Positions 243 to 37,850 of a stretch of DNA of 57,273 bases are shown here, in pieces. The stretch is from NCBI GenBank assembly GCA_015063725.1, contig SVTP01000010.1:1-57273 (forward strand), in the 5' to 3' direction. How positions within the stretch are numbered: position 1 is the first letter of the stretch; each line of letters begins with the position of its first letter. Under the pieces are notes generated by a model. That model saw nothing but the letters and a program-made list of their open reading frames with translations. It was not told the DNA's origin and did not search any database. The DNA comes from Oscillospiraceae bacterium (GTDB lineage Bacteria; Bacillota; Clostridia; Oscillospirales; CAG-272). The position numbers were made by a program, and so were the translations under genes.

Positions 243-412
243 TTTAGGGGGAACTTTTTGAAAAAAGTTCCCCCTAACCCCCTCAAAAACTTTTGCACAA
301 AAATGGCTAAATGAATTTGTTAGTTTCCATACGGACGGGCGGCGCGAGGTAAAACCTCGCTTTTGCTGCCGCTAACTCGCAGGGACCACCGAGACCCTGC
401 TCGTTAAGAAAG
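243..412 (+). repeat. Dispersed 3'-end repeat, copy A
   Basis: This begins 10 bases after the spoVT stop with a long hairpin (TTAGGGGGAAC and its complement, 244-277). It continues with an 'ACCCCCTCAAAAAC' box, a 'GTTAGTT...ACGGACGGGCGG' box and a closing 'GAGACCCTGCTCGTTAAGAA' box near 391-411. The same boxes recur in the same order at 14245, 14717 (inverted), 32376 and 35181 (inverted). No reading frame in it looks coding. The hairpin probably terminates spoVT. The 218-base gap between spoVT and the next gene holds only this repeat and the terminator at 415-447. Confidence 0.75.
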
Positions 413-414
413 TA

Positions 415-447
415 GAAAAACGAGATAGCAAATGCTATCTCGTTTTG
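415..447 (-). terminator. Terminator of the YgjV-like gene
   Basis: Perfect 11-bp stem (ACGAGATAGCA, 420-430, with its complement at 433-443) and a two-base loop. On the minus strand it is followed by a run of T. It lies just past the stop of the gene at 452. Confidence 0.85.
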
Positions 448-14211: not shown

Positions 14212-14244
14212 TGGCAGGTCTCCTTTCGTAAGGGATGCGGTTTC

Positions 14245-14415
14245 GTGGGGGAACTTCTTTCGAGAAGTTCCCCCACACCCCCTCAAGAACTTGCTGACAA
14301 GGGGTTAAAGAAAATAAATCGTTTCACACGGATAGACAGTCGGCGCAAGCGTTCCGCTTGCTTTTGCTGTCGCGAGCGCGTGGGCGCCACCAAGACCCCG
14401 CGCGCTAAGAAAGTT
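14245..14415 (+). repeat. Dispersed 3'-end repeat, copy B
   Basis: This starts with a perfect 14-bp hairpin (GTGGGGGAACTTCT, 14245-14258, TTCG loop). 'ACCCCCTCAAGAAC', 'ACAGTCGGCGC' and 'ACCAAGACCCCGCGCGCTAAGAAAG' follow in the family order (last box near 14390-14413). Unlike other copies it does not follow a gene end; it lies upstream of the helicase start, facing away. Together with inverted copy C it brackets the noncoding island 14212-14908. Confidence 0.75.
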
Positions 14416-14427
14416 CATTTGCGGTGG

Positions 14428-14716
14428 TTCGGGAGCACCAAAGCACTCCCCTACCGGTTGATTTTTCATTTTTATAAATCCCCAAAAGCGGACCGTCGGG
14501 GACGCCGATCCCTACAAGAAATTTAATATACACCGTAGGGGCGAACGGTGTTCGCCCGTTTTTATTTACGATAACCGTTCATTTTCGGGAGCACCAAGGC
14601 ACTCCCCTACCGGTTGATTTGGGGCAAGCGGAAATTTGTTCGTTTTTGGGATGTCGAGGCGCCGTCCCCTACCGGTTGTTTTTTGATTTTTATAAATCCC
14701 CAAAAGCGGACCGCCA
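14428..14716 (+). repeat. Internal repeat block of GTAGGGG / CCCCTACCGG type
   Basis: No gene. The phrase 'GCACTCCCCTACCGGTTG' occurs at 14444-14461 and again at 14600-14617, with a third 'CCCCTACCGGTTG' at 14667-14679. An identical 28-bp stretch occurs at 14468-14495 and 14686-14713. In the middle, 'ACACCGTAGGGGCGAACGG' with 'TTCGCCCG' (14530-14559) forms a hairpin, and it is related to a block near 37862. 'GGGATGTCGAGGCGCCGTC' (14648-14666) recurs at 35147 next to copy E. The block is a mosaic of short dispersed modules. Confidence 0.7.
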
Positions 14717-14894
14717 AACAACTCTCTTAGCGGATAGGGTTAGTGGTCCCTAGCCGCTCGCGAGAGCAAAAGCGAGGTTTACCTCGCGCCGCCCGTCCGT
14801 TAGTGAATTAAAAATTCCATTTTTGTATTTTTGTGCGAGTGCTTTTTGGAGGGGGTGCGGGGGAACACTTTTTCGCGAAAAAGGTTCCCCCGCA
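14717..14894 (-). repeat. Dispersed 3'-end repeat, copy C
   Basis: Inverted relative to copy B. On the minus strand, similarity starts at the polA stop codon: TGATTTT, then the TGCGGGGGAAC hairpin (14856-14894). It passes through the 'ACGGACGGGCGGCGCGAGG' box and ends with 'CGCTAAGAGAGTTGTTT' (14717-14733). It is placed to terminate polA. Confidence 0.78.
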
Positions 14895-31514: not shown

Positions 31515-32363
31515 ATGAACAGAACCGTAATTGGCATTGACGTAGGCGGAACCACCACCAAAATTGTGGGCTTTCGCCAGAAGAAAAACGGAAAACAGGA
31601 GCTGATCGCTCCGCAGTTCGTGCGTGCGACCGATCCCTTGACCTCGATCTACGGCGCGTTTGGCAAATTCACCGCCGAAAACGGGCTTACCCTCTCGGAT
31701 ATTGACCGCATCATGATGACGGGTGCCGGCTCGGTTTACGTAAAGGATTCGATCTACAATCTGCCCTGCACTCCCGTTCCCGAGTTCACCAGCAGCGGTG
31801 TGGGCGGTCTTTACCTCTCAGGGCTTGAGGAAGCCATCGTTGTCAGCATGGGCACGGGTACTGCCATCAACCACGCCAAGCGCACAGGTGACGGACACGA
31901 GATCAAGTATCTTGGCGGCACGGGTGTTGGCGGCGGAACGCTGATCGGGCTTTCCCGCAAGCTCATTGGTGTGGACACCATCGAGCACATTGAAAAGCTC
32001 GCCACCGAGGGCAACCTCGACAACGTGGACCTGCGCATCAAGGACATTGCACAAAACCGCTCCTATCACGGCATTAACGAGAACCTCACCGCCGCTAACT
32101 TTGGTAAGGTCTCGGATATCGCGACCAACGCCGACCTCGCCCTCGGCATCTCTAACCTCGTTGCCGAAACGGTTGCAATGCTTTCCATTTTTGCCGCACG
32201 TAGCTACAATCTCCGTGACATCGTCCTCATTGGCAACCTGACGACTATTGAGCCCATTCGTAACGTTTTCGAGTCTCTTGGCGATAGCTTCGGCGTCCGC
32301 TTCGTTATCCCCGAAAACGCACAGTTCGGCACCGTAATCGGCGCGGCTTTGCATAAAGATTGA
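31515..32363 (+). CDS. coaW: Type II pantothenate kinase
   Basis: 282 residues. It phosphorylates pantothenate, the first step of coenzyme A synthesis. The actin-like ATPase fold is marked by phosphate-1 'VIGIDVGGTTTK' (5-16), 'MMTGAGSVYV' and phosphate-2 'VVSMGTGTAIN' near 111, and 'GGTGVGGGTLIGLS', as in the staphylococcal/eukaryotic-type PanK. The C-terminal half has 'IVLIGNLTT'. ATG 31515 is 13 bases from AAAGGA; an in-frame TTG at 31506 is closer (4 bases) and might be the true start, adding three residues. The protein ends exactly where repeat copy D begins. Confidence 0.9.
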   Translation: MNRTVIGIDVGGTTTKIVGFRQKKNGKQELIAPQFVRATDPLTSIYGAFGKFTAENGLTLSDIDRIMMTGAGSVYVKDSIYNLPCTPVPEFTSSGVGGLYLSGLEEAIVVSMGTGTAINHAKRTGDGHEIKYLGGTGVGGGTLIGLSRKLIGVDTIEHIEKLATEGNLDNVDLRIKDIAQNRSYHGINENLTAANFGKVSDIATNADLALGISNLVAETVAMLSIFAARSYNLRDIVLIGNLTTIEPIRNVFESLGDSFGVRFVIPENAQFGTVIGAALHKD

Positions 32364-32656
32364 TTTTTGAATGATTGCGGGGGAACCTTTTTCAGCGAAA
32401 AAGAGTTCCCCCGCACCCCTTCCAAAAAGCACTCTCACAAAGGATCAAAAAATAAATTTATTAGTTCACTAACAGACAGTCGGCGCGAGCGCACCGCTCG
32501 CTTTGGCTGCCGCGAGCGGCTGGGTAGCGAAGCGGCGCGAGCATAATGAATGACAGTCCGGTGGACTGTCAGAACGTTAAGTTGCCGCAGGCAACTTTTG
32601 TGACACGAGCCGCAGCGAGACCCTCCAAGCCCCCATCCGCTAAGAGAGTTGTTTTG
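32361..32656 (+). repeat. Dispersed 3'-end repeat, copy D
   Basis: Similarity with copy E begins at the coaW stop codon (GATTGATTTTT then AATGATTGCGGGGG). It continues through the hairpin TGCGGGGGAAC...GTTCCCCCGCA (32376-32415), 'ACAGTCGGCGCGAG' and the end box GCTAAGAGAGTTGTTTTG (32639-32656). A 100-base insert (about 32523-32620) carries two extra perfect hairpins, GACAGTCC/GGACTGTC and AAGTTGCC/GGCAACTT. The 405-base gap before the next gene holds no coding frame. Confidence 0.82.
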
Positions 32657-32768: not shown

Positions 32769-35087
32769 ATGAAAAACACGTTTGTAAAGGCTTTATTGGT
32801 ATTTCTTTTGGCTCTGTCGCTCATTGGATTGGCATCCTGCAAAAACGATTCCGAAACCAACAACGACACCCAACCGCAAACCTCGCACACGCACGCCTTT
32901 GGCGAGTGGAAGCTCGTCAAAGAGGCTACCCTGAATGAAGAGGGCGCCGAGGAGCGCACCTGCTCCTGCGGTGAGGTGGAAACCAGAACGGTTGCCACCA
33001 CTCCTTCCTCTGTCGGTTTGAAATATGCCGTCAACCCTGATGGCGAAACCTGCACGATCAGAGGCATTGGCACTTGTACCGACACAAAAATCATTATTGG
33101 ACAAACCATTGACGGCTACCGCGTAACGGCAATTGGATTGGATGCCTTTTTTAACTGCACCACCATTACCGACGTTGTAATTGCCGACAGTGTAACAAGC
33201 ATTGGCACCTCTGCCTTTGCACATTGCGAAAAGCTTACAAGCATCACGCTCCCAAAGAATTTGGACGCTATTAAAAAGTCCACCTTTAGCGATTGCACGT
33301 CGCTGAAGCAGATCTCCATTCCCGTCGGTGTCACCACCATTGAAAATCGCGCGTTTTTCGGTTGTAAGGCTTTAGAGAGTGTAGAGCTCCCCGAAGGGCT
33401 GACCACCATTGAAAACCTGGCTTTCCGCAACTGCACAGAGCTCAAAAACGTGGACATTCCGAACACGGTAACCCTTGTGGGGAACACTTCTTTTTCCGGC
33501 TGCGATAACGCATTGGATGTTGAGGGTGGCATTACTTACATCGACACGTGGGCGATGGATTACGACAAAAAGACCTCGTACGTCATCATTCGCGACGGCA
33601 CCAAGGGCTTGGTAGACGGACTGTTTTCAGGCTCTGCAGAGCTCACCGGCGTCAGCCTGCCCGATACCCTGACCTACATTGGCGATGACGTATTCAACTC
33701 TTGCAAGGGGCTGACAAGCCTGATCATCCCCAACAGCGTTACCCACATGGGCAAGCTCTCCTTTAAGGAATGCTATGAGCTACAAAGCATCATTCTGCCC
33801 GATTGCATCACCACCATTGGCGAGGAGATGTTTGCTTACTGTGAATCTCTTGAGCGTGTAAACATTCCCAAAAATGTAGAAAGCATTGGCGAATCTGCCT
33901 TTTTGGCTTGCAATTCCCTAACGCAGGTCATCATTCCCGACAATGTTAAGAGCATTGGCGTTTGCGCATTTTTCAACTGTCTCTCACTTAACAAGGTACA
34001 TTTTGGAAAAGGGCTTGAAACACTTGAGCCCGATGCGTTCAGCGGCTGCTACATTTCCCGTATTTCAATAAATCCGGACAATCCCACCTACCACGTACAA
34101 AACAACTGCCTGATTGATACGCAAGCCAAAAAATTGGTAATGGGCTGCAGCACCAGTATCATTCCCGATGACGGAAGCGTAACAACCATTGGCAAAATGG
34201 CTTTCGCGTGCTATGGTATAACCACCATCACCATTCCCAACACCATCACCACCCTTGAGGATTACGCCTTTATCGGATGCAATGATTTGGTACACATCAC
34301 TATTCCCGAAAGCGTAACAACCTTTGGAAAAGGCATATTCAGCAGTTGCCACAATTTGACAAGTGTTCAATTCCCCGAGAATCTCACTGTTATTCCCGAC
34401 GAAATGTTAGCCGGTTGTAATGCACTCGTACGAATTGAAATTCCCGAAGGCATTACACACATCGGTGCCAGCGTATTCAGCAACTGCGACAATCTGGAAG
34501 AGGTCATTCTTCCCTCAACTTTGCAAGAAATCGGACGGAGTGCATTCTTTTATTGCATATACCTCAAAAACATTGTAATTCCCGAGGGAGTGACCTACAT
34601 CGGCGATAATGCATTTAATACTTGCTTTTTTCTTGAGCAAATCACTTTGCCAAGCAAATTGACCTATTTGGGTTCCGGTGCTTTTGAAAACTGTGCATCC
34701 CTGCTCAAAATCACTGTGCCGGGTTCTGTTGAAACCATCGGGGATCACACATTCGCAAACAACAGCTCCCTCGAAGAGGTGGTTATAGAGGATGGTGTTA
34801 CCAGCATTGGTGCATATGTATTTTTGAATTGCACTTGCATTGAAGAAATCTATATTCCCGCAAGTGTTACAAGCATTGGCGAGCAGGCGTTTTATAATTG
34901 CTTTGACGTTTCCTATATTTACTTTGACGGAAAAATGAAGCAATGGGATGCCATTGAAAAAGGAACCCTTTGGAACGGCAATCTGGGATGGAACGATTAT
35001 AATATCTTTAATTCGGGCGTGTTCCTCATTTGTCAGGATCAAGGAGCCGAAATATGGGGAGATATGCAGGATGACATTTTTTCCTGA
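32769..35087 (+). CDS. BspA-family leucine-rich repeat lipoprotein
   Basis: 772 residues. A signal peptide with lipobox 'LIGLASC' (lipidated Cys24) is followed by an 'HTHAFGEWKLV...CSCGEVETR' spacer. About 25 tandem LRR_5 (BspA-type) repeats of 22-24 residues follow, with the periodic pattern 'IP..V..IG..AF..C..L..I'. No anchoring signal other than the lipid is seen. Such proteins are surface-exposed and bind host or bacterial ligands in some species; the ligand here is unknown. AAAGGAG lies 6 bases before the ATG. The gene sits alone between inverted repeat copies D and E. Its repeats make it prone to recombination. Confidence 0.9.
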   Translation: MKNTFVKALLVFLLALSLIGLASCKNDSETNNDTQPQTSHTHAFGEWKLVKEATLNEEGAEERTCSCGEVETRTVATTPSSVGLKYAVNPDGETCTIRGIGTCTDTKIIIGQTIDGYRVTAIGLDAFFNCTTITDVVIADSVTSIGTSAFAHCEKLTSITLPKNLDAIKKSTFSDCTSLKQISIPVGVTTIENRAFFGCKALESVELPEGLTTIENLAFRNCTELKNVDIPNTVTLVGNTSFSGCDNALDVEGGITYIDTWAMDYDKKTSYVIIRDGTKGLVDGLFSGSAELTGVSLPDTLTYIGDDVFNSCKGLTSLIIPNSVTHMGKLSFKECYELQSIILPDCITTIGEEMFAYCESLERVNIPKNVESIGESAFLACNSLTQVIIPDNVKSIGVCAFFNCLSLNKVHFGKGLETLEPDAFSGCYISRISINPDNPTYHVQNNCLIDTQAKKLVMGCSTSIIPDDGSVTTIGKMAFACYGITTITIPNTITTLEDYAFIGCNDLVHITIPESVTTFGKGIFSSCHNLTSVQFPENLTVIPDEMLAGCNALVRIEIPEGITHIGASVFSNCDNLEEVILPSTLQEIGRSAFFYCIYLKNIVIPEGVTYIGDNAFNTCFFLEQITLPSKLTYLGSGAFENCASLLKITVPGSVETIGDHTFANNSSLEEVVIEDGVTSIGAYVFLNCTCIEEIYIPASVTSIGEQAFYNCFDVSYIYFDGKMKQWDAIEKGTLWNGNLGWNDYNIFNSGVFLICQDQGAEIWGDMQDDIFS

Positions 35088-35142: not shown

Positions 35143-35180
35143 TGCGGGACGTCGAGGGCGCCGTCACCTACCATATTGAG

Positions 35181-35343
35181 CAAAACAACTCTCTTAGCGA
35201 GCAGGGTCTCGGTGGTACCCAAGCGCCATCCGTCCATTCGTGAACTAACGACTTCCCTTTTTGACCTTTTTTGAGAGAGTTTTTTGGAAGGGGTGCGGGG
35301 GAACCTCTTTTTGCAAAAAAGGTTCCCCCGCAATCATTCATAA
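35181..35343 (-). repeat. Dispersed 3'-end repeat, copy E
   Basis: Inverted relative to copy D. It runs on the minus strand from the asd stop codon (GATTGATTTTTTATGAATGA) through the hairpin TGCGGGGGAAC...(35294-35332) to CAAAACAACTCTCTTAGC (35181-35198), which is the exact complement of the end of copy D. The hairpin is placed to terminate asd. A short neighbouring block (35147-35165) repeats a module seen at 14648. Confidence 0.82.
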
Positions 35344-35347
35344 AAAA

Positions 35348-36424
35348 TCAATCAAAATATCCCTCTCTATATAGCAGCTCTGCAATGAGGACTGCACCGC
35401 CTGCGGCGCCGCGCAGGGTATTGTGGGAGAGGCCCACAAATTTGTAATCAAAGAGAGTATCCTCGCGCAAGCGACCAACGGTCACGCCCATACCGTCATA
35501 GATGTCGCGGTCGAGCTTAGCTTGCGGACGGTTGTCTTCTTCAAAATAGGTGATGAACTGCTCGGGAGCGTGAGGGAGCTTCAGCTCCTGCGGCTTGCCC
35601 GCAAAGTTCTTCCATGCATCAAGGATATCCTCCTTGGTGGGCTTGTTTTCAAAGCGCACGAACACAGCGGCGGTGTGACCGTCGGTGACAGGTACGCGGA
35701 TGCACTGCGTGGTGATGAGGGGAGCGTCAGCCTTGACGATCTCACCGTTCTCCACCTTGCCCCAAACGCGCAGGGGCTCTTGCTCGCTCTTCTCTTCCTC
35801 GCCACCGATGTAAGGAATGACGTTGTCAATCATCTCGGGCCACTCGCGGAAGGTTTTGCCTGCACCCGAAATTGCCTGATAGGTGGTGGCAACAACCTCT
35901 TTGATTCCGTACTTGCGCAGAGGTGTGAGGGCGGGAACATAGGACTGGATGGAGCAGTTGGGCTTTACGGCAATAAAGCCACGCTTGGTGCCAAGTCGCG
36001 CTCTTTGCGCGGCAATGACCTCGAGGTGCTCGTCGTTGATCTCGGGAATGACCATCGGCACGTCGGGCGTCCAACGGTGCGCGGAGTTGTTGGAAACAAC
36101 GGGGATCTCTGCCTTTGCATATGCTTCCTCAAGGGCGCGGATGTCCTCTTTTTTCATGTCGACCGCGCAGAAAACAAAGGAGCATTTTTCCCCTACTGCG
36201 GCGATCTCGGCGGCATCCAGCACCACCATCTTTTTGTATTGCTCGGGCATGGGCGTTGTCATCTTCCAACGCTCGCCAACGGCTTCTTCATAGGTCTTGC
36301 CTGCGGAGCGCGCAGATGCCGCAAGAACAGAAACTTCAAAATAAGGGTGATCGGCAAGGAGCGTCAAAAAGCGCTGTCCAACCATACCCGTGGCGCCAAT
36401 AACGCCAACCTTCATTTTACTCAT
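35348..36424 (-). CDS. asd: Aspartate-semialdehyde dehydrogenase
   Basis: 358 residues. It reduces aspartyl phosphate to aspartate semialdehyde, at the branch to lysine/diaminopimelate, threonine and methionine. NADP motif 'VGVIGATGMVGQRFL' (6-20), active-site Cys157 in 'VKPNCSIQS', 'SGAGKTFREWPEM' and the base-carrying 'VPVTDGHTAAVFV'. The sequence is of the longer archaeal/fungal-like type ('LRGAAGGAVLIAELL' at the end). Start at 36424 with AAAGGA 7 bases upstream; the frame extends far upstream but crosses the promoter and an opposing gene. Confidence 0.95.
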   Translation of the reverse strand: MSKMKVGVIGATGMVGQRFLTLLADHPYFEVSVLAASARSAGKTYEEAVGERWKMTTPMPEQYKKMVVLDAAEIAAVGEKCSFVFCAVDMKKEDIRALEEAYAKAEIPVVSNNSAHRWTPDVPMVIPEINDEHLEVIAAQRARLGTKRGFIAVKPNCSIQSYVPALTPLRKYGIKEVVATTYQAISGAGKTFREWPEMIDNVIPYIGGEEEKSEQEPLRVWGKVENGEIVKADAPLITTQCIRVPVTDGHTAAVFVRFENKPTKEDILDAWKNFAGKPQELKLPHAPEQFITYFEEDNRPQAKLDRDIYDGMGVTVGRLREDTLFDYKFVGLSHNTLRGAAGGAVLIAELLYREGYFD

Positions 36425-37775: not shown

Positions 37776-37850
37776 GTAGGGCGGGGGCTTGCTCCCGCCG
37801 TTTTTATACCTAAAGGGTTCCTTGGCGGCGGGAGCAAGCCCCCGCCCTAC
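37776..37850 (+). repeat. Perfect 25-bp inverted repeat; left arm doubles as terminator
   Basis: The arm 37776-37800 (GTAGGGCGGGGGCTTGCTCC onward) is exactly complementary to 37826-37850, across a 25-base loop. The left arm alone folds as GGCGGG/CCCGCC and is followed by TTTTT, so it can terminate the methyltransferase gene. It is a GTAGGG-type dispersed palindrome. Confidence 0.8.

Follow-up and report, generated by a model that had tools for sequence, protein, structure and literature searches.

The window analysed here, a stretch of 57,273 nucleotides forming part of the draft genome of an Oscillospiraceae bacterium (contig SVTP01000010.1), holds five copies, A to E, of a dispersed element comprised of a hairpin (H1), a box directly downstream of it, and a 3' module bearing two further hairpins, H2 and H3 (Table 1). 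Genes were predicted after training a gene finder on the DNA under study. The gene upstream of copy D encodes a type II pantothenate kinase (coaW-type) and that upstream of copy E is asd, both assigned by NCBIfam, and copy C follows polA. The ORF preceding copy A has no NCBIfam match, and the spoVT identity given to it in an earlier, sequence-only reading of this DNA was not confirmed. Copy B stands apart from any stop codon, and its H1, within 14220-14307, lies directly behind the ribosome binding site of an opposite-strand gene. A leucine-rich-repeat surface protein (HupY/LrrG-like by NCBIfam, below cut-off) is encoded between copies D and E at 32769-35087, and REP-like palindromes (GTAGGGGCGAACGGTGTTCGCCC, GTAGGGCGGGGGCTTGCTCCCGCCG) are present between genes at 14428-14713 and 37776-37850.

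Table 1. Parts of copies A to E in the window, with the position of each H1 relative to the neighbouring gene.
Feature	Position	Strand	Remarks
Copy A, H1	247..274	+	13 nt past an ORF with its stop at 231-233
Copy A, box (CCCCCTCAAAAA)	278..289	+	
Copy A, 3' module (H2+H3)	312..425	+	
Copy B, H1 with TTCTT tract	14247..14274	+	35 nt ahead of the start of a helicase-like gene on the other strand
Copy B, box (CCCCCTCAAGAA)	14278..14289	+	AAGAA mirrors TTCTT
Copy B, 3' module (H2+H3)	14313..14426	+	
Copy C, 3' module (H2+H3)	14709..14819	-	
Copy C, box (CCCCCTCCAAAAA)	14843..14855	-	
Copy C, H1	14859..14891	-	17 nt past the polA stop; one-base bulge in 3' arm
Copy D, H1 (GGGGGAACCTTTTT...AAAAAGAGTTCCCCC)	32379..32412	+	15 nt past the coaW-type stop TGA (32361-32363)
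Copy D, box (CCCCTTCCAAAAA)	32416..32428	+	complementary in parallel to the 5' arm of H1; putative third strand
Copy D, 3' module (H2, H3, AAGAGAGTTGTTTT end)	32453..32656	+	
Copy E, shortened 3' module	35176..35256	-	
Copy E, box (CCCCTTCCAAAAAA)	35280..35293	-	predicted third strand
Copy E, H1	35297..35329	-	18 nt past the asd stop (35348-35350)

All five copies named in the sequence-only reading are present, and they align as members of one larger genome-wide family. The boxes it described as shared fared unevenly: the H1 hairpin followed by the ACCCC.TC box occurs in every copy, whereas the GTTAGTTCAC..ACGGACGG and GCTAAGA.AGTTGTTTT boxes are clear in some of the five only. The 3' end of copy A reads ...TTAAGAAAGTAGAAA, and copy B carries GTTTCACACGGATAGACAG and ends in ...GCTAAGAAAGTTCATTT.

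The covariance-model search that the same reading had called for was run on the window's own genome (1.85 Mb, 38 contigs, 80% complete) with two models, R1, covering the leader, H1 and the box downstream (built from 37 sequences), and R2, covering H2, H3 and the 3' end (built from 17 sequences). R1 returned 150 rows, from which opposite-strand duplicates were removed, mostly by eye, to leave 97 unique sites of H1 and box; this figure is to be taken as at least 97, since the search scored 150 of 1160 candidates and weak sites may be missing. R2 returned 65 sites of the 3' module, two of its 67 rows being left out (one an opposite-strand duplicate, the other the second half of copy D). The similarity of copy E to other DNA of the genome is far beyond chance, given 73 BLAST matches with a best non-self E value of 6e-29. 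The stems are conserved as stems: 12 of 15 pairs in H1 and 10 of 20 in H2/H3 are changed on both sides, and for each the count of such pairs and the covariation score exceed every one of 500 shuffles. A less clear signal comes from the number of pair types, which is reached by 6 of 500 shuffles for H1 and by 111 of 500 for H2/H3. The repeat family is thus real. An Rfam search of the window found a tRNA as the sole match, with no family matching the element at gathering score, and copy E searched at E<=1 gave microRNA models only, far under the gathering score.

The placement of the family is narrowly defined. A same-strand gene lies upstream at 76 of the 97 sites, and 71 of these begin 7-25 nt past its stop codon; an opposite-strand gene lies upstream at 20 sites, with one further site at a contig edge. 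The suspected preference for gene 3' ends is therefore strong, and placement in the 3' UTR is borne out by the same sites. Similarity does start at the stop codon in copies D, E and C, each beginning TGATTTT, but genome-wide this holds at only 6 of the 71 sites, and the stops themselves vary (TAA 44, TGA 18, TAG 9), so the stop codon lies outside the element. The expectation that copies always begin at stops fails genome-wide, where stop codon and leader vary and where copy B sits elsewhere. The related proposal that the element is fused to coding ends was rejected on the same variability and on a comparison of asd C-termini: orthologues without the element had been expected to end differently, and yet REGYFD is kept both with it (own genome, L131) and without it (L128, L146). 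At eight of the 20 sites with an opposite-strand gene upstream, H1 is 16-35 nt away from the start codon of that gene, near its ribosome binding site. Along the genome, the sites are unevenly spread, with contigs C9, C16, C25, C35 and C38 rich in H1 and three 20-kb control stretches holding none; the long contigs C8 (176 kb), C30 (110 kb) and C31 (103 kb) carry two, one and two H1 sites, near contig ends.

The suggestion that the element provides a terminator stands as far as its terminator-like position goes, but the alignment has no U-tract behind H1 on either strand, and a canonical terminator at H1 was rejected for this reason. A U-tract terminator is found within 90 nt at 0 of 71 element ends compared to 34 of 95 control ends (the 71 ends of this comparison being a selection of its own, largely but not necessarily the 71 positioned sites), and the control-end terminators mostly start 1-25 nt past the stop, where H1 sits at element ends. 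When the distance is extended to 400 nt, such terminators appear at 29 of the 71 element ends and 48 of the 95 controls, and with an ordinary terminator farther downstream at those 29 the element may not terminate at all. Element ends are convergent in 40 of 69 cases versus 42 of 137 (Fisher p 0.0003), in regions picked for element hits.

The main feature of the element, absent from the sequence-only reading, is a mirror-complementary, predicted third strand. The box behind H1 is the parallel (mirror) complement of the 5' arm of the hairpin, as expected of a third strand: the arm consists, in order, of a G/A tract, a C junction and a T tract, and the box of a C/T tract, a C junction and an A tract, the box usually being one base shorter. 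Third-strand pairing is the only relation known to join two stretches of one strand in parallel. Arm and box read GGGGGAACCTTTTT / CCCCTTCCAAAAA in copy D, GGGGGAAACTTCTT / CCCCTTTCAAGAA in another example, and GGGGAAACTCTTTTTT / CCCTTTCAGAAAAAA at locus L174, and in copy E an arm with T6 is answered by a box with A6. The mirror relation extends to non-palindromic arms, as in C23:17731 (GGGGGAAGAGGAAAAC / CCCCCATCTCCTTTC), in a second such arm (GGGAGGAAC / CCCTCTTC), and in the long C25:20512 (GGAGAGGGGGAAAC / CCTCTCCCCTTTC), which R1 had missed.

This relation was quantified on 151 parsed sites, 93 from the own genome and 58 from nine relatives, with six of 157 giving no parsed hairpin. The block pattern fits 141 of the 151; among these, the arm exceeds the box by exactly one base in 109 and the number of junction Cs is equal in 125. 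In 20,000 permutations within species and background, to which 140 sites were given (one misparsed site being left out), none reached the observed agreement in the T/A tract (68 of 85 informative sites; 37.7 expected), the junction (44 of 46; 21.0 expected), the length (81 of 94; 57.9 expected) or the base after the tract (81 of 99; 54.6 expected). The coupling of A count to T count at fixed length is weak (31 of 82 against 25.1, reached by 504 of 20,000 permutations). Over all 151 sites, the box matches the parallel complement at 10.28 of 13 bases, compared to 5.88 for shuffled boxes. Antiparallel pairing of box and arm, as in a switch hairpin, was rejected, scoring 5.00 against 5.93 for shuffled boxes. 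A simpler account, in which H1 alone matters as a plain hairpin terminator or 3'-end stabiliser and the box is a spacer, would accommodate the gene-end position and the covarying H1 stem (12 of 15 pairs), but it leaves the coupling of box to arm without a part to play and is at odds with the missing U-tract, and it is accordingly very improbable.

A scan for the architecture alone recovers most of the family, passing 78 of the 86 family hairpins that give a stem of 10 (out of the 97 sites) and 0 of 86 on the opposite strand. Among controls, it passes 7 of 4660 hairpins with swapped downstream sequence and 1 of 466 other hairpins, the one being C25:20512, itself a missed member. These results were obtained with a rule whose stem limit and treatment of C over C were changed after seeing the data; the first version did not separate family from other hairpins (10 of 88 and 73 of 998, respectively, at 0.75) because stems ran through the TGC/GCA base and C-over-C was disallowed. 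Four R2 hits have no R1 hit: C25:20512 and C11:202 display a mirrored hairpin by eye, an insert interrupts that of C14:38275, and C16:859 lacks one. One-base bulges occur in the 3' arm of 17 hairpins and in the 5' arm of one, and all 17 of the former lie in or beside the Gs opposite the C junction, as exemplified by the bulge of copy D at the C junction.

The coupling of arm to box must be weighed against descent by copying, because orthologous ends seem to exchange entire elements and a coupling can be inherited in this way. The motif might then be read by a protein, as RNA or DNA, with no triplex at all, and its mirror look would come from a few low-complexity subfamilies spread by copying. 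A few common X/Y types do dominate, and a box taken from another site in the same species fits on average nearly as closely as the site's own (9.50 and 10.28 mean matches, respectively), since most copies share a few tract types. Such an account is unlikely, as the coupling persists within species, within the purine part and within the junction class (0 of 20,000), and recurs in rare non-palindromic arms, in C25:20512, found by architecture alone, and in further phyla, where tract lengths differ.

Orthologous gene ends differ in whether they carry the element. In same-genus relatives, H1 and box stand at the asd end in G021 and G010 and about 60 nt past the stop in G022, and at least six others (L122, L124, L125, L126, L128, L133; by eye) bear a hairpin and T-run there; behind coaW, H1 is found in G009, G021 and G010, with other sequences elsewhere. 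In a comparison of the own genome with G024, both sides of which were chosen for element hits, the two versions of the element at a shared gene end differ where the genes are up to 99% identical. At three ends (L038|6, L067|1, L077|2), H1 in the own genome is matched by an ordinary terminator in G024, and at L054|2 the reverse is seen. Among the 33 orthologous pairs parsed with a strict pattern (an earlier, lax pattern for version swaps having miscalled a few pairs), the junction differs in 17, with both boxes following in 16, and the T tract differs in 16, with both boxes following in 11.

The 3' module is far more restricted than H1 and box. In the own genome, 61 of the 65 R2 sites follow a same-strand R1 site, and in 57 cases 3-8 nt separate the two. 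Under the stricter filters used for relatives, and with the own genome counted in the search tallies, R1 has hits in 32 of the 34 relatives from the same genus and in 2 of the 25 others, and R2 in 11 of 34 and 0 of 25, respectively. The H2/H3 module is an addition made by some species of the genus, and the core does not depend on it. At the thresholds applied, the same-genus genome G029 has seven R2 matches and no R1 match, and may represent a species whose 3' module comes without this type of H1. A second repeat (GTAGCGAAGCGGCGCGAGC..AATGAATGACAGTCCGGTGGACTGTCAGAACG..GAGCCGCAGCGAGACC) occurs at about 32524-32622 in copy D of the window and also at L005, L008, L016 and L080; in several copies it lies inside the H3 loop, and at L016 it follows a copy without H3.

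These features raise the prospect of a terminator-associated mobile repeat, MITE-like, in which a unit of H1, box, H2 and H3 inserts behind stops, a notion compatible with a triplex. The copies are numerous and dispersed (97 sites, 61 of them joined to a 3' module), the element is missing from certain orthologous positions in relatives and differs in version at others, repeats are nested, and the 3' module is lineage-restricted. The candidate terminal inverted repeats AACTCTCT / AGAGAGTT, however, were not supported as a covarying stem, with a score of 5.08 against 4.92 when swapped and with 176 of 1000 swaps reaching the observed score (52 of 61 sites parsed), and R1 occurs in nearly all same-genus relatives where the 3' module occurs in 11 only, so that mobility of this kind is quite unlikely.

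The core is not confined to the genus. A pattern scan of GTDB genomes found at least 115 stretches; among the 80 matches listed, 59 are Clostridia-type, 13 are from Verrucomicrobiota JPAS_metabat.76, three are from Desulfobacterales DeMMO6_21 and five are single others, and among 27 of the listed stretches that were inspected, those of Marivirga and Akkermansiaceae are without the H1 hairpin. R1 matches, counted on both strands, number 138 in the Verrucomicrobiota genome, 82 in Desulfobacterales, 74 in Auribacterota, 36 in Desulfovibrio and two in Hydrogenedentota. The distant Clostridiales genome Gx485_bin36 (G065; L282, L301) has 147, compared to 150 in the own genome on the same count. Outside the genus, 46 loci are high-scoring and 44 have a hairpin, and under the changed scan rule 36 of the 44 pass the mirror score, compared to 1 of 94 other hairpins there. 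The share is 29 of 32 in other phyla (Verrucomicrobiota 19/20, Desulfobacterales 5/6, Auribacterota 3/4, Desulfovibrio 1/1, Hydrogenedentota 1/1) and 7 of 12 in Clostridiales Gx485, and several of the eight misses have stems extended past the linker. Boxes swapped between groups still score 9.49 against 10.61, so the element sequences are largely alike across groups. At 29 of the 44 loci (Verrucomicrobiota 15/20, Desulfobacterales 1/6), an ORF of 90 aa or longer terminates no more than 70 nt upstream, compared to 339 of 1800 random positions. Recurrence across phyla may reflect either common descent or convergence.

Taken at the level of sequence, H1 and its box probably fold into a strand-switching intrastrand triplex that would end or protect the transcript. 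In the lower half, the third strand would run in parallel with the 5' arm, there the purine one, placing C over G-C and T/U over A-T/U; in the upper half, it would run antiparallel to the 3' arm, there the purine one, placing A over T-A and G over C-G. The third strand would switch partner at the C junction, where C over C-G is not a standard triad. Strand-switching triplexes formed with synthetic oligonucleotides exist. Were the triplex to form in the transcript, it would lock the 3' hairpin against read-through by RNA polymerase and against 3'-5' exonucleases, and could thereby stand in for a U-tract terminator. In copy E, the U-rich terminus of the 3' module offers the A tract of the box another sequence with which it can pair. 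At loci L178-L217 of G010 and G021, which have no 3' module, a short hairpin and U-tract often follow the A tract of the box (e.g. AAAAACCTTT..AAAGGTTTTT), by which the tract may have a second pairing partner.

Whether RNA or DNA would carry the triplex is weighed by opposing evidence. The gene-end position, the orientation, the exchanges with terminators and an excess of G.T over A.C pairs on the element strand (21 to 6, weak because hairpin parsing tolerated G.T) favour the transcript. The lower half corresponds to the pyrimidine motif (class III) and the upper half to the purine motif (class II), and purine-motif triplexes cannot form in RNA according to the available text of PMC4666352, which makes the upper half hard to explain in a transcript and favours DNA; the C-rich form is described there as stabler in acid. 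The non-template strand, displaced as the DNA is transcribed or replicated, might fold into the triplex as single-stranded DNA and stall polymerases or mark gene ends, its place behind genes reflecting tolerance or transcription-coupled opening. Apart from the junction, every triad is a standard one in DNA, 20 of the 97 sites lie behind an opposite-strand gene, and BoxC/PIT elements are precedents in DNA that block DNA polymerase in vitro (PMC4666352, available text). Such a fold in DNA is nonetheless somewhat unlikely in view of the strong sense orientation, the 7-25 nt distance and the interchange with U-tract terminators, along with the weak G.T excess.

With a triplex in the transcript as the preferred reading, a broader and more tentative possibility is that these elements represent a cross-phylum class of gene ends in which a strand-switching triple helix, not a U-tract, would end or seal transcripts, that is, a second intrinsic kind of 3' end whose third-strand pairing is seen as mirror covariation. 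A third strand that covaries with its stem, has a defined place relative to genes, and occurs in dozens of copies in one genome and in several phyla makes the cellular role of triplex motifs directly testable, and provides a rule for finding more: a parallel complement, one base short, with the C junction kept.

Among known systems, intrinsic (Rho-independent) terminators share with the element a G+C-rich hairpin, the same distance from the stop and mutual replacement at some orthologous ends, but the element has a mirror-complementary box, and no U-tract, right behind H1. In the 3' RNA triple helices of MALAT1 and the viral ENE, found in eukaryotes and viruses, U-rich loops are closed by an A-rich tail. 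There, as would be the case here, a triple helix protects the RNA 3' end (PMC11411715, available text), whereas the bacterial element has a hairpin arm matched base by base by its box. Together with the box, the arm's purine tract makes up a polypurine mirror repeat like those of H-DNA; H-DNA requires only a mirror repeat in duplex DNA, as far as the text of PMC4666352 available describes it, while in the element the inverted repeat is conserved too, as folding of a single strand needs. An archaeal G-rich/C-rich repeat also combines a hairpin with a third strand near gene ends or starts and forms an antiparallel triplex in vitro, but, in the portion of PMC8044849 available, it is G-quadruplex forming, has a G-rich third strand, belongs to Methanomicrobiaceae and lies about 300 nt from genes on average. 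No description of this gene-end motif was found among the matches listed in the open-access literature on triplexes, terminators and intergenic repeats.

The closest relatives in form are the intrastrand triplex motifs catalogued as ITxF classes I-IV, typified by TM_ECO (BoxC/PIT) with 23 intergenic copies in E. coli; these too have a hairpin and third strand on one strand and many intergenic copies (PMC4666352, available text). The Hoogsteen rule for a hairpin and contiguous third strand on one strand is followed by the present element, judged by base order. The classes need a homopurine-homopyrimidine stem (6-15, loops 1-6), which is not what is found here, the arm switching from purine to pyrimidine and the third strand switching partner at the C junction, and an ITxF-like finder, written from the description in the available text of PMC4666352, detected 1 of the 97 sites. 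For TM_ECO, the same text, as available, reports no trend in orientation or distance, no regulatory role found in E. coli and, citing earlier work on BoxC/PIT, no terminator activity; the present element, by contrast, lies mostly 7-25 nt past stops, and displays the covariation of arm and third strand that the available text does not report for TM_ECO. The element is filed here as a new intrastrand-triplex variant at gene ends, outside classes I-IV and distinct from the U-tract terminator.
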